Source: Gimesia benthica
GTDB lineage: Bacteria; Planctomycetota; Planctomycetia; Planctomycetales; Planctomycetaceae
Assembly (NCBI RefSeq): GCF_009720525.1
Contig: NZ_CP043930.1
Coordinates: 5,778,001-5,842,000 of the forward strand
Reading direction: 5' to 3'
Length of the DNA stretch: 64,000 bases
The position numbers were made by a program, and so were the translations under genes. Under the pieces are notes generated by a model. It worked only from the letters and a program-made list of their open reading frames with translations. It was not told the DNA's origin and searched no databases. This document shows positions 48,642-55,251 of this stretch, piece after piece; the first letter of the stretch is position 1; each line of letters opens with the position of its first letter.

Positions 48642-49016
48642 TTACTCTTTTACTTCTCCAACGGGAGGCAGTTCGTCTTTTTCGATGTAGTCACCAAAAG
48701 TTTTACCTTCGGTGGGGCTGGGCATCTTTTCAGCATCTTTGAGTGCTTTGACGATCTTGTCTTTGTCAGTTTCTTTCCGCTTTGACAGACCTTTACCAAC
48801 GGCCTGACCGTAGGCACTCTTTTCTTTCTTGGTCTTGCCAGGGTGGCAGATGCCGCATTTCTTGTCGATCAGCATTTTGGAGTCAGGGTATGTTTCTGCC
48901 CAGATTTTTTTGAAGTTAGGACGAGCTTCAACCTGCTTTTCACCACAGATCAGAGTCAGTCCGGCGATCGCCAGGCCAAACATCAATGCTACTTTTACGT
49001 TCATCATTTTCCGCAT
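48642..49016 (-). CDS. Small secreted monohaem c-type cytochrome-like protein
   Basis: The product is 124 residues from the ATG at 49016, chosen because GAGG lies 7 bases upstream. An in-frame ATG at 49028 overlaps that site. A signal peptide (MRKMMNVKVALMFGLAIAGL, cleavage near QVEARP) is followed by a single haem motif C54-G-I-C57-H58 in LIDKKCGICHPGKTKKEKSA. A possible distal Met occurs in DAEKMPSPTEGKTFGDY. The protein is Lys-rich. It is probably a periplasmic electron carrier; its partner is not identifiable from the neighbours. Confidence 0.8.
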   Translation of the reverse strand: MRKMMNVKVALMFGLAIAGLTLICGEKQVEARPNFKKIWAETYPDSKMLIDKKCGICHPGKTKKEKSAYGQAVGKGLSKRKETDKDKIVKALKDAEKMPSPTEGKTFGDYIEKDELPPVGEVKE

Positions 49017-49552
49017 AAAATTCCTCATATTCTTCTAAAAAGTAAGTGACAGTTAACTTAAGAAGCTCCCGGCTTGAGCCAGCCAGAAACCTCGGTCAGT
49101 GGTTGCCCCGTATCACAAGAAGTTCGAGTTTTTCAAATCACAACAAATTGTGTAACTACATTAGAATACTCATTTTCCACGCTGTCAACGCACTCAAGGA
49201 AATCGAATCAAGAATGTCTCATTTGAAAAATTCTGATTTATCAATCTTTTTATCTCCGGCAAAAACGTGTTTATCCTGAATGAATCAGGTCTTCAGTGGG
49301 ATACCGGGGATCAGGAGTGGTAAGGTTGTAAGTTGTTTTAGGTGTTGATCTTAGTGAAGTAGTTGGTAGGATGGATTGAACTTGGTTGGGATCTGTGTGT
49401 ATGTCTTCTGCAGTTCCATACGTCATTATAAGGTTCAGCGTTGGGGATTTTAAAGAATTTTTTTCGAATAATTGTCCCGCCTGATTCATTCCCCTGGCGG
49501 CGTTCATTCGAATTGAGGCCATTGATCGCACTCGTATCAAAAGGAGTTCATC
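49017..49552. other. Divergent intergenic region before the sulfatase gene
   Basis: No convincing gene. The segment about 49310-49420 is conspicuously G/T-rich on the plus strand (for example GTTGTAAGTTGTTTTAGGTG), unlike the neighbouring sequence. I cannot assign a function. The sulfatase start is fixed by AAGGAG at 49541-49546. Confidence 0.5.
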
Positions 49553-50875
49553 GTGAAGCTGTGTAGAAACCTGTTGCTGGTGGTACTGGTGGTCTGGGGG
49601 GCTTGCGCTGCTCCGCGGAATGTCCTGGCTGAAGCCGCGTCCCGTCCGAATATTGTGATGATCATTTCCGATGATCAGGCCTGGAACGATTACGGTTTCA
49701 TGGGGCATGAAAAGATTAAAACCCCGAATCTGGACAAGCTGGCGGCGGAGAGTGCCGTCTTCAAGCGTGGTTATGTTCCGACCAGCCTGTGTCGCCCCAG
49801 TCTGATGACGATGATTACCGGTCTGTATCCGCATCAGAATATGATTACGGGGAATGATCCTCCCAAAGGCATGGATCGCCAGAAACTGCTGAAACATGTT
49901 CGCGCTGTTGACTGCCTGCCTCAAATGCTGGGCAAACTGGGATACAAGAGTTATCAGTGTGGCAAATGGTGGGAAGGCAATCCCAGTCTGGCCGGCTTCA
50001 CTTCGGCGATGACACATGGCGACCCCAAACGGGGAGGACGTCATGGTGACCTGGGTTTGAAGATCGGTCGGGAGGGGATGAAACCCGTTTATCAGTTCAT
50101 TGATGAATGCAAAGATGATCCTTTCTTTCTGTGGTATGCCCCCTTCCTGCCCCACACTCCTCACAATCCACCTCAGCGGATTCTGAAGAAATACCTTAAT
50201 CCGGAAACTCCAGTAGAGCTGTCCTATTATTACGCGATGGTTGAGTGGTTCGACGAAACCTGCGGACAACTGCTGGACTACCTGGATCAGAAACAGCTGT
50301 CGGACAACACAATAGTTGTCTACGTGACGGACAACGGCTGGATCCAGTATGTGCCTGAATCCGAGGCGGAACGCAAGAAAATGAAACGTCGTTTCCGTTA
50401 TGCCCCCAAGTCGAAGCGGAGTCCCTATGATGGCGGTCTCAGGACACCCATCCTGCTTCGCTGGCCGGGGAAAATCAAACCGGCAGAGTATGATACGTTG
50501 GTGAGCAGCATCGATCTGGCACCAACAATTCTGGATGCCGTCGGTTTAAAACCGACCAAAGCCATGGAAGGGATCAATCTGCTGCAGGTGATTCAGAACG
50601 GTGGCAAGACTGACCGCAAAGCGATTTTCGGCGAGATCTTCGAGCACGATATGGTCGACATTGATGCTCCCGTCACGAGTCTGAAATATCGCTGGTGTAT
50701 CGAAGGGGAATGGAAAGCGATCTTCCCCGGACCCCGGCTGAGTGAAGAAAAGCCCGAGTTATATAACCTGGCGCAGGATCCGTTTGAGCAGCACAATGCC
50801 GCGGCTGCGCATCCGGAACTGGTTCAACAGCTGTTGAAGCAGACCAATGCCTGGTGGAATGTTCCCGCAAATTAA
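49553..50875 (+). CDS. Secreted sulfatase (arylsulfatase family) with CRPSL active-site motif
   Basis: The product is 440 residues, starting at a GTG with AAGGAG six bases upstream. A signal peptide (MKLCRNLLLVVLVVWGACAA, cleavage near VLAEAA) is followed by the sulfatase fold. Metal-site motif PNIVMIISDDQAWNDYG, active-site segment SLCRPSLMTMITGLYPHQN, CGKWWEGNPSLAG, LWYAPFLPHTPHNPP and VTDNGWIQYV are present. The residue converted to formylglycine in the family would be Cys80. The usual recognition pattern is C-x-P-x-R, but here it reads C80-R-P-S-L84, so the Arg is replaced by Leu. Sulfatases of planctomycetes remove sulfate from marine algal polysaccharides. A hairpin terminator follows. 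Confidence 0.88.
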   Translation: MKLCRNLLLVVLVVWGACAAPRNVLAEAASRPNIVMIISDDQAWNDYGFMGHEKIKTPNLDKLAAESAVFKRGYVPTSLCRPSLMTMITGLYPHQNMITGNDPPKGMDRQKLLKHVRAVDCLPQMLGKLGYKSYQCGKWWEGNPSLAGFTSAMTHGDPKRGGRHGDLGLKIGREGMKPVYQFIDECKDDPFFLWYAPFLPHTPHNPPQRILKKYLNPETPVELSYYYAMVEWFDETCGQLLDYLDQKQLSDNTIVVYVTDNGWIQYVPESEAERKKMKRRFRYAPKSKRSPYDGGLRTPILLRWPGKIKPAEYDTLVSSIDLAPTILDAVGLKPTKAMEGINLLQVIQNGGKTDRKAIFGEIFEHDMVDIDAPVTSLKYRWCIEGEWKAIFPGPRLSEEKPELYNLAQDPFEQHNAAAAHPELVQQLLKQTNAWWNVPAN

Positions 50876-51552: not shown

Positions 51553-54500
51553 TTATCCGTTGGTGCGGATGGTCATTGCTTTGATGGGGGCGAGCAGGCG
51601 ACTGAAGTCACGGACGCAGTCCATGGTGGAAGAGATTTCTTCCTGGAGCTTCTCGGTATGCGAACCGTAGCCGAGCCGCCGGGCGAGGAATTCGAACTCT
51701 TCCTGATCCTGAGGGGGAACCGTCAGGTCCCTGGCGTTGCCGCGCACCATGCGCAGAGCATCAATGAGCCTGCGGAGAAAGATGTAGGCGTCGCGAAGTT
51801 TGTAGAAGTCGTCGGGACTGATCAGCCCCAGTTTTTTAAGGGACTCAATGCCTTCGAGAGTGTTTGTGGTTCGCAGTCCGGGATTGCGGTGCCCGTATGT
51901 GATCTGCATACCCTGGATCAGGTATTCACAATCAACGAGTCCACCGTCCCCGAGCTTGGCGTTGATGGTTCCCCCTTTGACGAGCTGCTGAATCTGCTTT
52001 TCCCGCATGGCGAGCATGGCAGCGACGTCGAACGGTTTGCCGGAGTAGATAATTTCATCCCTGACGCGGACGATCTGGTTTCCAAATTCCACATCGCCTG
52101 AGATCGGGCGGAGTTTGACCAGTGCCTGACGTTCATAAGGCCAGGCAGCTCCTTCGTGAGAGAAATAGCTTTGGAAGGCTTCAGCTGAGACAGCCAGACT
52201 GCCCGCCTGTCCGTACGGACGTAACCGCAGGTCGATCTGGAAAATACCTTCGCTGCGGGTTTTAATCATCTTGGTGAATTTTTCCACCAGCTTCAGGTAG
52301 TATTCATTATTCGTGATGACTTCGGCTCCATCCGTCTGCCCGGCACCTTCGTAAATAAACATCAGCTCAATGTCAGAGGCGAAGCCGAGTTCGCGTCCGC
52401 CACACTTTCCGAGTGCACAGATCGAAAGATGGCAGGGGCCACCCGATTCCAGTTGCGGCTCGCCATAGCGTTCCTGTAACTGTTGATGGCAGACTTCGTA
52501 TGCGCCTTCCACCACAACCTCTGCGACATCGGTTAATTCGTCTGAGAACTGGCCGAATTCAGAGATGTGACCCAGTATATGCCGCATGTCGGTACGCAGC
52601 ATGGCTCGATCTTTGAAGGCGTTTAGCCGTTCCTGCTGTTCTTCAGGAGTCGATGCCTCAGCGAGCTCTTCGGTGAGTTCGGCCTGGAGTTCCTCCAGGG
52701 GAATCCGGTTTTTCAATTCTTCCACATTGGCAACAACGGGGAACAGATTGGAATGCTGCAAGCGGAGGAAGTCTTCCCAGAGGAAGTCACTGACCCCCAG
52801 CAGACGTGCCAGGGCACTGAGCACGCTGGTACGCTCCAGTGAGGAAATTTCTTCGACCCAGTTGGGTTGCTTGAAAAGATGCTCCAGGAACTCGCGGAAG
52901 TGCAGCAGTGCCGATTCCGGATTGGGAGAGCGGGGGAGCAGGTGTGTGAAGTGTTTAATCAAGACGATCGCGGCACGCAGTCCCTGTTGCTGGGCTTCCG
53001 CACTGATTTTTTCCCCTTTATCATCGGTGACATACAGCACATCGCTGACGCGGGTTCCTTCCGAATCGATTACCATGCGGGCGATATCGATGCCGCTCAT
53101 CGAGAGGGCGTTGGTCAACTCATACAGGAAGCCGGTGGTATCTTCAGACTGGATGCGGAGAATGGTGTGCCGACTGTCAGTCTCGTTGTCGACTTCAATT
53201 TCAACCGGGTACAGCACCTGGCTGGCCTGTGCGAGATCATGCAGGCCGGCGGCGACGCGTTTGGCAAGTTCTCCCACAGCTTCCTGGGGATTCCCCGATT
53301 CGACTTTGTGCAGCAACTGGGAAAGGTCGTTACGGTAGTCGGTCCAGATATTCGGTTCCACGGCAGGGCCGGAGGCTTTAACATCCAGCACGATGACGAA
53401 CTTGCGGGTGTTTTTGGTCTTCTCACTCGGTTTGGTAGACCGCCCGGAAGCGGGAGCCGGTTTGACCTTCTGGTTGGTAAACAGGTGCCCTTTCTCAATG
53501 TCGAATCCGTAGACAAACAGCAGACCGCAAATCAGGGACAGGTCGCCGGTCTGGTCAAAGCCGACCATGGTCAGACGCAATTGATTGTTAGGGCGCTTTT
53601 CCGTTTCGAACTCAACGATGTTGGTCTCGCTCAGTTTGCGAGCCATCTGGCTGTGCTGCTCGGTCTCTTGTTCATTAAAGACTTTGGTATAAGAGGCCGC
53701 CATCATTCCGATGGGATTGCTGTCCTGCTCGGAATGCGTGGAGTGTTTTCCTGTTTTGTTTTCAGCGGGATCGTAGATGTATTTTCTGTAGATGCTGCGA
53801 ACCGCTTTGCGGTGTTGTTCATAATACTGCACCAGCTGTTTGCCGTCCTGGAAATCAAGCCGCCGGGCGAGGTAAGCCAGTTCCCGCTCATCGGTGGGCA
53901 TGTGATGCTCCTGGTTATAGTGCATCAGCTGCAGCGCGTGTTCAATTTTTCGAAAGAAGACATAGCCGCTGGTCAGGTGGCGATATTCATCCGCCTGGAT
54001 GAGGCCGTGATCGACGAGTCGCACAAGCCCGTCCAGCGTATTGATGCTGCGAATCGAGGGGTATTTCGCACCGTTGGCCATCTGCAGGTACTGAGTCGTG
54101 AACTCCACATCGCGGATAGAGCCTTTGCCAGATTTGACTTCGCCCCATTCCTTGCCTTTTTTCTTCAGGGTCTCTTCAATCCGTTGTTTCATCTCCAGCA
54201 CATTTTTGCGGACTTCTTCTGAATCGCAGTTGAAGATCTGTGGTTCGATGCGGCGGAAGAACTCCATGCCCAGTTTCTGATTGCCGGCGATCACGCGGGC
54301 TTTCAGCATCGCCTGCTTTTCCCAGAGGCGACCATGTTTGGCGAAGTAATCGACGTAAGCGTCGACCGTGGTCACCAGCGCACCAGAGCGTCCCCAGGGA
54401 CGAAGACGCATATCAACGCGGTACAGGAAGCCTTCAGCCGTCGATTCCATCAGGGACTTGATGAGTTTCTGGCCGAGCTGCCAGTATTTGGTGGAGTCCT

Positions 54501-55251
54501 GTCCGGAGATGAAGACGAGGTCGATGTCCGAACTGTAGTTCAATTCTTCCCCACCCAGTTTACCAAAGGCCAGGACGGCGAAGTCATCCAGGGGCAGATC
54601 CATGTCTTCTGAGAGAACGGTCAAACAGGATTGCACCAGTCCGTCAGCCAGTAGCGAAAGCTGGACAGTGATGTTTTTGAGGTCCATCAGGCCGAAGGTG
54701 TCACAAGCACCGATGCGGAGCAGTTCCCAGCGCTGGAAACGACGAACGGCATCGAATTTTTCGGCGACACTGCCGGTCTCCTGCCGCATGATGGCCATTG
54801 CTTCTGAGAAGAACTGCTGCTGACTTTTGAATTCGGCAATCCGGTTGTAGCGGGTCAATCGTTCGAGGTAGTCGGGGTTCTTGAGGAGAATTTCCGTGAG
54901 GAACTGACTGCCGACGAAGAGCCGGACCAGAATTTCGACGGCTCGTGGATTCTGTGTAAGGAACTCGAGCATCGTTTCGGGTTCCGAAACGCTGTTCATG
55001 AACCGTTCGAAGTTGATCAGGGAGCCATCTGGAGTTGCGGCATCGGTCAGTGCCTGGAGCAGGGTTGGCAGAATCTGGGTTAATTCTTTACGAATCTGGG
55101 GCGTTGTGCACAGCTCCCGCAGTCGAATCAGCGCACGTTCCTGATCGCTAAATCCGATGCTGGCCAGGATGTCTCTGACTTCGGGATCGCTGACGGTATA
55201 TTTCTGATCCAGAAGAATTTCCGGGTTGTCATAGATGACGGGGCTATTCAT
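51553..55251 (-). CDS. glnE: Glutamine-synthetase adenylyltransferase/adenylyl-removing enzyme (GlnE) with inserted ACT-like region
   Basis: GlnE adds AMP to, and removes AMP from, glutamine synthetase. This version is 1,232 residues, about 270 longer than typical GlnE. The N-terminal half carries FGKLGGEELNYSSDIDLVFI (Asp242-x-Asp244) and SGKGSIRDVEFTTQYLQM. The C-terminal half carries LGKCGGRELGFASDIELMFI (Asp960-x-Glu962) and DGGLVDCEYLIQGMQITYGH. Between them (about residues 500-770) lie two beta-alpha-beta segments: LRLTMVGFDQTGDLSLICGL (about 558-592) and TILRIQSEDTTGFLYELTNA through MSGIDIARMVIDSEG to DVLYVTD (about 695-743). The second is a clear ACT domain of the GlnD kind. No PII or GlnA gene is nearby. 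The ATG at 55251 lacks a ribosome-binding site. A DxE pair replaces DxD in the second site. Confidence 0.88.
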   Translation of the reverse strand: MNSPVIYDNPEILLDQKYTVSDPEVRDILASIGFSDQERALIRLRELCTTPQIRKELTQILPTLLQALTDAATPDGSLINFERFMNSVSEPETMLEFLTQNPRAVEILVRLFVGSQFLTEILLKNPDYLERLTRYNRIAEFKSQQQFFSEAMAIMRQETGSVAEKFDAVRRFQRWELLRIGACDTFGLMDLKNITVQLSLLADGLVQSCLTVLSEDMDLPLDDFAVLAFGKLGGEELNYSSDIDLVFISGQDSTKYWQLGQKLIKSLMESTAEGFLYRVDMRLRPWGRSGALVTTVDAYVDYFAKHGRLWEKQAMLKARVIAGNQKLGMEFFRRIEPQIFNCDSEEVRKNVLEMKQRIEETLKKKGKEWGEVKSGKGSIRDVEFTTQYLQMANGAKYPSIRSINTLDGLVRLVDHGLIQADEYRHLTSGYVFFRKIEHALQLMHYNQEHHMPTDERELAYLARRLDFQDGKQLVQYYEQHRKAVRSIYRKYIYDPAENKTGKHSTHSEQDSNPIGMMAASYTKVFNEQETEQHSQMARKLSETNIVEFETEKRPNNQLRLTMVGFDQTGDLSLICGLLFVYGFDIEKGHLFTNQKVKPAPASGRSTKPSEKTKNTRKFVIVLDVKASGPAVEPNIWTDYRNDLSQLLHKVESGNPQEAVGELAKRVAAGLHDLAQASQVLYPVEIEVDNETDSRHTILRIQSEDTTGFLYELTNALSMSGIDIARMVIDSEGTRVSDVLYVTDDKGEKISAEAQQQGLRAAIVLIKHFTHLLPRSPNPESALLHFREFLEHLFKQPNWVEEISSLERTSVLSALARLLGVSDFLWEDFLRLQHSNLFPVVANVEELKNRIPLEELQAELTEELAEASTPEEQQERLNAFKDRAMLRTDMRHILGHISEFGQFSDELTDVAEVVVEGAYEVCHQQLQERYGEPQLESGGPCHLSICALGKCGGRELGFASDIELMFIYEGAGQTDGAEVITNNEYYLKLVEKFTKMIKTRSEGIFQIDLRLRPYGQAGSLAVSAEAFQSYFSHEGAAWPYERQALVKLRPISGDVEFGNQIVRVRDEIIYSGKPFDVAAMLAMREKQIQQLVKGGTINAKLGDGGLVDCEYLIQGMQITYGHRNPGLRTTNTLEGIESLKKLGLISPDDFYKLRDAYIFLRRLIDALRMVRGNARDLTVPPQDQEEFEFLARRLGYGSHTEKLQEEISSTMDCVRDFSRLLAPIKAMTIRTNG

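Follow-up and report, generated by a model that had tools for sequence, protein, structure and literature searches.

A predicted glutamine synthetase adenylyltransferase of Gimesia benthica with a GlnD-like ACT pair ahead of a divergent second half

Introduction

Nitrogen control through GlnD, PII and GlnE belongs to the textbook. The last enzyme of this chain, GlnE, is annotated in E. coli as a fused deadenylase/adenylyltransferase, in that order, and it is its C-terminal half that adenylylates glutamine synthetase, with deadenylylation assigned to the other half. GlnD, in turn, is described in an excerpt of PMC3173338 as a glutamine sensor, whose ACT domains possibly act via glutamine binding. 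Here we analyze a glnE-type gene from a 64,000-nucleotide stretch of Gimesia benthica (NZ_CP043930.1, positions 5,778,001 to 5,842,000; hereafter, the window), in whose product the first sensor of this chain appears to sit on the last enzyme. On balance we consider it probable, if well short of secure, that the window protein is a bifunctional glutamine synthetase adenylyltransferase of a distinct and old lineage, in which a GlnD-type module (a pre-ACT segment, ACT1 and ACT2) is fused ahead of the second half, and that adenylylation is driven by glutamine binding to the ACT pair.

Results

Two GlnE-type halves enclose a GlnD-type ACT pair

The gene and the parts of its product are as follows, where NTase stands for nucleotidyltransferase and E for the expectation value.

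51553..55251, minus strand: glnE-type gene, an intact open reading frame of 1232 amino acids, in the order N-half, ACT1, ACT2, C-half
53782..55074, minus strand: N-half, residues about 60-490, NTase plus UR_UTase helical domain with the motif GKLGGEELNYSSDIDL (D242, D244); an ordinary N-type half
53587..53721, minus strand: segment before ACT1, residues 511-555; hhalign with the GlnD pre-ACT1 stretch 98.0%, E 3e-13 (reversed control, E 0.25)
53257..53586, minus strand: ACT1, residues about 556-665, matched to GlnD ACT1 by hhalign, containing a variable loop (about 599-618) and the turn D566-x-x-G569
52927..53199, minus strand: ACT2, residues about 685-775, recognized by Pfam and hhalign, with the turn D704-T-T-G707-FLYELTNAL
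51592..52854, minus strand: C-half, residues about 800-1220, a divergent ACT-linked NTase half with the motif GKCGGRELGFASDIEL (D960, E962), in which D-x-E replaces D-x-D

The assignment to GlnE comes from several models. Pfam finds both the GlnE domain (PF03710, 190.9 and 176 bits, each above the cut-off of 24) and the GlnD_UR_UTase domain twice in the protein, and the protein exceeds the cut-off of the whole-protein GlnE equivalog NF008292 (530.7 versus 487 bits) while staying below those of NF010707 (513.7 versus 625) and NF010706 (401.4 versus 724). The catalytic motif GK-GG-EL-SD-x-[DE] is found in both halves, as D-x-E in the second, and the solved GlnE structures 1v4a and 3k7d each yield one matching stretch, in the N-half.

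The region between the halves was resolved with family profiles and profile-profile comparisons, with the following results. First, ACT_ACR9_3rd (PF24931) matches residues 685-760 with E 1e-6 and 29.1 bits (range 29.1-31.5), above its cut-off of 27, and the same domain aligns with GlnD ACT2 in hhalign at 99.2% (E 2e-19). Second, the first ACT segment, LRLTMVGFDQTGDLSLICGL, has no Pfam match of its own, and is identified as GlnD ACT1 by hhalign (98.0%, E 2e-13). Third, the NCBIfam model of GlnD, TIGR01693, matches residues 516-762 with its positions 626-845, that is, with both GlnD ACT domains and in their order. Fourth, the whole region aligns with GlnD C-termini over 231 columns (56 versus 24 sequences) with a probability of 99.9 and E 8e-35, while four reversed-sequence controls gave E values of 0.07-0.3. 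Since each of the three parts (pre-ACT segment, ACT1, ACT2) has its match in GlnD, the complete GlnD sensory module is present, the stretch before ACT1 included, and its homology to the GlnD C-terminus can be taken as established at the level of profiles. The one clear ACT domain and the second, ACT-like segment that a preliminary description had noted are hence two ACT domains, both of GlnD type.

In a tree of 239 columns (those with an occupancy of 75% or more), 65 ACT pairs and 42 GlnD sequences, two pairs of them identical, fall on opposite sides of one branch with a support of 100 in the Shimodaira-Hasegawa-like approximate likelihood ratio test (SH-aLRT). An earlier tree that included group-specific flank columns gave the same split; two very long branches belong to D_L205, a broken frame, and to E. 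coli. A single old origin of the ACT pair would be the simplest reading of this tree. Recent capture of the ACT pair of a local GlnD was also considered, and rejected on the same parting of the two groups.

An unlikely yet serious alternative to glutamine as the ligand is that the ACT pair, or each ACT separately, senses another small molecule, be it an amino acid or a nitrogen metabolite, with the same control of the attached half. ACT domains serve as amino-acid sites of feedback-regulated enzymes, such as that for serine in E. coli PGDH (excerpt of PMC3173338); the ACT1 turn differs between the two sets, with the consensus YDYxGELSLICGLL in the ACT enzymes and xxPGxFxKIxGVL in GlnD; and sequence search returned no ACT relative with a solved structure (seven matches, best E 0.2). 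However, the profile relatives are the ACT pairs of GlnD, a described sensor of glutamine, and glutamine synthesis is the pathway to which the enzyme belongs, which argues for glutamine.

The ACT pair travels with a distinct second half

GlnE was found in 100 of 244 genomes drawn from the phylum. All 21 genomes of the protein's own family, that of G. benthica included, have long frames of 1202-1336 amino acids, and the stretch equivalent to residues 496-776 comprises 257-317 residues in every one of the 21 proteins, as compared with 75-80 in nine of nine ordinary Planctomycetota GlnEs; in two proteins of another family it measures 265 and 218 residues. The two catalytic halves with a long spacer reported in the preliminary description are confirmed for the window protein. 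In a larger draw, in which at most two candidates were scored per genome, a model of the ACT pair plus the following half matched 156 of 392 genomes, with ACT and half together in 28 of 28 matching own-family genomes and in eight genomes of other families. The 36 strongest matches of this phylum sample all have the ACT part, and the remaining ones among those listed start at about position 245 or later of the 719-position model, that is, without it.

In a scan of named genomes, we collected the best 80 of at least 560 relatives, and sorted these loci with hidden Markov models of the parts. First, the order of the window protein (N-ACT-ACT-C) occurs in 27 loci, from Chloroflexota and Planctomycetota. 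Second, 16 loci have the permuted order ACT-ACT-C-N (Desulfobacterales, other 'Deltaproteobacteria' bins, Verrucomicrobiota, Lentisphaerota, Spirochaetota, Margulisbacteria, a planctomycete and further bins). Third, the parts are split between two adjoining, divergently transcribed genes in 29 loci, nearly all of Nitrospira/Nitrospirae (for instance L105:4117-8172, with 28 others in L099-L151); here the ACT-ACT-C gene mostly has 761-802 codons of open frame and the N-type half mostly 552-605, and summed scores for the partner gene prefer N over C in 29 of 29. In six further loci the first half is absent from the flank, and two are undecided at contig ends. A GlnE-type N-half is fused or adjoining in 72 of the 80, whereas the ACT pair ends 26-39 residues ahead of the ACT-linked half in all of them. 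A lone form comes from a Phycisphaeraceae genome (L065:9212-11509, the same protein as L093), where the ACT pair and a single half make up a protein of 765 amino acids with one PF03710 match; profile search of this genome found no other GlnE half and no GlnD. This protein is possibly a one-way adenylylating enzyme.

The half that follows the ACT pair is itself distinct. In a tree of 67 ACT-linked and nine canonical halves (near-identical Nitrospirota and some other loci omitted, as in the trees of ACT pairs and of N-halves), the ACT-linked halves form one clade, apart from canonical C-halves, with SH-aLRT 100 and a stem of 1.69 substitutions per site (1.4-1.7 over the two trees of halves). Mapped onto this tree, the arrangements need five changes, versus 35.2 in shuffles, the label 'split' including one locus undecided at a contig end (L109); as one side of a branch, the N-ACT-C group obtains an SH-aLRT of only 71. 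D-x-E is found in 19 of 20 ACT-linked halves, and an ELNYSSDID-like D-x-D in canonical N-halves; D-x-D is retained in two proteins labelled f66 (L050 and L051). The N-halves of the ACT systems are ordinary, with no clear separation from canonical N-halves in a tree of 55 and 10 sequences, respectively. All trees are unrooted and carry SH-aLRT support without bootstrap, and the first tree of halves came from a quick search; its bipartition of N versus C, with three groups and no root, cannot make the ACT-linked half a C-half. We take this half to act as a C-half because it is paired with an N-type half, and not from its sequence alone.

These results bear on the notion, present in the preliminary description, of an insertion into GlnE. 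A canonical GlnE with a lineage-specific ACT pair inserted into its inter-domain linker would agree with the position of the pair between the halves in the window protein and in the N-ACT-C group. However, the second half is non-canonical, with its own well-supported clade and long stem, and in other phyla the unit of ACT pair and half is permuted, split or without a neighbouring first half. Because the pair travels with a distinct half, also alone, split or N-terminal to the other half, we do not regard it as an insertion into canonical GlnE, and reject a late insertion of this kind as exceedingly improbable.

Conservation of the ACT pair

Compared with five members of the genus, the window protein is 86-98% identical in the ACT1 core and 84-97% in ACT2, about equal to its catalytic halves (87-97%). 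Lower values were obtained for residues 619-684, which are the remainder of ACT1 and the following stretch (67-94%), for the linker (55-88%) and for the loop (40-80%). The ratio of nonsynonymous to synonymous substitution rates is 0.013-0.046 across all segments, as estimated from the single usable pair (L041), most other values being saturated. Two alignments extend these comparisons. First, among 27 full-length N-ACT-C rows (26 of the 27 loci plus the window), the turn residues D566, G569, D704 and G707 are invariant, and so are the catalytic motif residues. Second, 56 ACT regions of all arrangements and many phyla, taken from the window and 55 of the 80 loci, all have D704, and at least 90% have D566.

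Another possible role of the pair is a structural or docking one (dimerisation, or contacts with PII or glutamine synthetase) after loss of ligand binding. The retention of a PII/GlnD chain in the genome of G. benthica would suit such a role, as would worn ACT1 copies in which the turn aspartate is missing (L055 and L047) and the variability of the turn glycines outside the N-ACT-C group. Against it, D704 is present in all, and D566 in at least 90%, of the 56 sequences from many phyla, and PII over cut-off is missing from many carriers; we consider this explanation distinctly unlikely.

Association with glutamine synthetase, PII and GlnD

Of the 80 loci, many of them truncated at contig ends, 25 have a glutamine synthetase gene in the flank; by arrangement, these are 11 of 27 N-ACT-C, 8 of 16 ACT-C-N, 4 of 29 split and 2 of 8 other loci. 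A Desulfobacterales locus (L089) combines the ACT enzyme with amtB, PII, glutamine synthetase and glnD, and in Nitrospira (L105, L107 and L110) the gene pair adjoins glutamine synthetase, glnD, PII and amtB. The genome of G. benthica encodes two glutamine synthetases with the tyrosine motif IYDLKPDE or IYDMTPEE, at a position that we take to be the adenylylated tyrosine site. Among the ACT-enzyme genomes of the Anaerolinea class, glutamine synthetase was found in 27 of the 28 checked (28 of the at least 31 described below); KDLY stands at the tyrosine site in 21 of these 27, exactly as KDLYDLPPEE in 14, and none of the motif patterns used matched in the other six.

The PII and GlnD background of the carriers was surveyed in two sets. 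First, 44 ACT-enzyme genomes (37 of the 80 loci, selected to cover a wide spread, plus seven genomes of the phylum; 43 distinct, G304 and G396 being the same genome) include 12 with a full or near-full GlnD, ten of them over cut-off, and 29 with PII over cut-off; 15 (14 distinct) have neither. Second, GlnD over cut-off was found in none of 121 genomes of the Anaerolinea class, drawn with a requested completeness of at least 90. The ACT enzyme is present in at least 31 of them, in five as short, probably contig-cut frames, and these 31 divide into 19 without PII over cut-off, seven with only weak PII-like matches (25-40 bits) and five with strong PII.

These data also speak to the target of the ACT-linked half, which could be another protein, such as PII in the manner of GlnD, instead of glutamine synthetase. 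A GlnD sensor combined with the unusual D-x-E catalytic motif would fit such a change of target. Against it, PII over cut-off is lacking in the 15 of 44 and 19 of 31 carriers just mentioned, a GlnE-type N-half and nearby glutamine synthetase genes accompany the ACT-linked half at the frequencies given above, and the window protein stays far under the TIGR01693 cut-off of 519.4, with 33.8 bits for model positions 21-290, 52.4 for 626-845, nothing between, and 89.6 for the whole. A different target is therefore very improbable.

As separate observations on the same genome, two weak PII-family genes (6197012-6197269 and 6438816-6439079; 44.1 and 37.5 bits) lie outside its amtB-PII-PII-glnD cluster. 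Its own GlnD (890095-892863), read by eye, has a worn ACT1 with no D..PG at the turn and an intact ACT2; the ACT enzyme of the same genome, also read by eye, keeps turn D and G in both ACT domains. The window also encodes a small protein of 128 amino acids (48642-49028, minus strand), whose start is signal-like and which has a haem-like CGICH motif, and, near the glnE-type gene, a sulfatase-like gene with a CRPS motif (49553-50875), both likewise read by eye.

Discussion

As judged from gene and domain organization, three features of the system are well established: the place of the ACT pair ahead of one half is fixed while the other half moves, both catalytic motifs are present, and glutamine synthetase genes are frequently near. 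Direct amino-acid sensing would be the natural reading of two GlnD-type ACT domains in a GlnE, and it is because their coupling to one half is fixed, whereas the other half moves or is missing, that we propose the pair to control the attached half. In the working model, the C-half would adenylylate glutamine synthetase, as does the C-terminal half of E. coli GlnE, and the N-half would remove adenosine monophosphate. When nitrogen is plentiful, glutamine bound by ACT1-ACT2 would promote adenylylation, and glutamine synthetase would be turned down; when glutamine falls, the N-half would prevail. In G. benthica this sensor would operate beside PII and GlnD, while the main nitrogen input may come through it in the Anaerolinea class, where GlnD over cut-off was not found and most carriers have no PII over cut-off.

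Several observations weigh against this interpretation. First, with respect to the ACT pair, the general ACT family PF01842 matches residues 696-748 with E 7e-5 and 23.0 bits (range 23.0-25.7), below its cut-off of 27; the conserved columns in the alignment of 56 ACT regions do not include G569 and G707; and DTPAFLY is seen, by eye, in permuted, split and lone copies. Second, of eight positions separating canonical N from C, the ACT-linked half matches C at four, N at three and neither at one, which is too mixed for a firm assignment of its sequence to the canonical C type. Third, the genome of G. benthica has four PII-family genes, two of which, with T-loop tyrosines, are in the amtB-PII-PII-glnD cluster, and GlnD is present in 11 of 11 further own-family members tested. 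Fourth, a control of 41 out of 73 ordinary-GlnE Planctomycetota genomes, scored for GlnD, gave a full or near-full GlnD in 22 (17 over cut-off), a fragment in one and none in 18; therefore, GlnD loss alone is no mark of ACT enzymes. Fifth, the set of 80 loci is query-biased and no fair sample, and many genomes are metagenome bins, which makes absences soft.

It is within these bounds that the idea of a bypass of PII, put forward in the preliminary description, may be judged. It gains no support in G. benthica, given the cluster just mentioned, and it fits the Anaerolinea-class genomes without GlnD and often without PII, where such a bypass is plausible. A broader proposal is a separate ancient lineage with the GlnD glutamine sensor attached directly to the adenylylating half, in which glutamine would act on glutamine synthetase independently of PII and GlnD; its portable ACT-ACT-half unit (two fusion orders, a divergent pair in Nitrospirota, and a lone form) would replace the PII/GlnD chain in the Anaerolinea class and others. 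We advance it tentatively, as an idea that might hold but to which we would not yet commit. Direct glutamine control as such would not be new; the route via ACT would be.

Since the ACT-half unit occurs permuted, split and alone, which half is regulated, and by what, is directly testable. Our favoured reading, that of a glutamine-responsive ACT pair on the adenylylating half, also points to a way in which glutamine synthetase may be adenylylated in nitrifying Nitrospira and in relatives of Anaerolinea that have no GlnD and frequently no PII. Because the NCBI model calls the window protein a plain GlnE, current annotation hides the difference. The parts of the system are known, and we found no description of the ACT-GlnE combination: in the open literature, GlnE (or 'glutamine synthetase adenylyltransferase') and 'ACT domain' were not found together, which is weak evidence of absence, as subscription journals were mostly uncovered, and the excerpt of PMC3710099 holds nothing on ACT.

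Comparison with known systems

With canonical GlnE of the E. coli type (NF008292/PRK11072) the window protein shares two halves, each of NTase plus helical domain, a score over the NF008292 cut-off, and a genome whose glutamine synthetases have an adenylylation-type tyrosine; it differs by its extra ACT pair and its divergent D-x-E second half, and by relatives that are permuted or split. With plant ACR proteins (ACR9-like, PF24931) it shares ACT2, which scores above the family cut-off, and to our knowledge these proteins have no GlnE-type catalytic half. According to an excerpt of PMC3173338, it is the ACT domains of GlnD that ACR11 resembles most. Finally, the window protein differs from GlnD (TIGR01693) in having GlnE-type NTases and no match to the HD part, whereas the C-terminal module of GlnD, that is, pre-ACT segment, ACT1 and ACT2, recurs in it in the same order.

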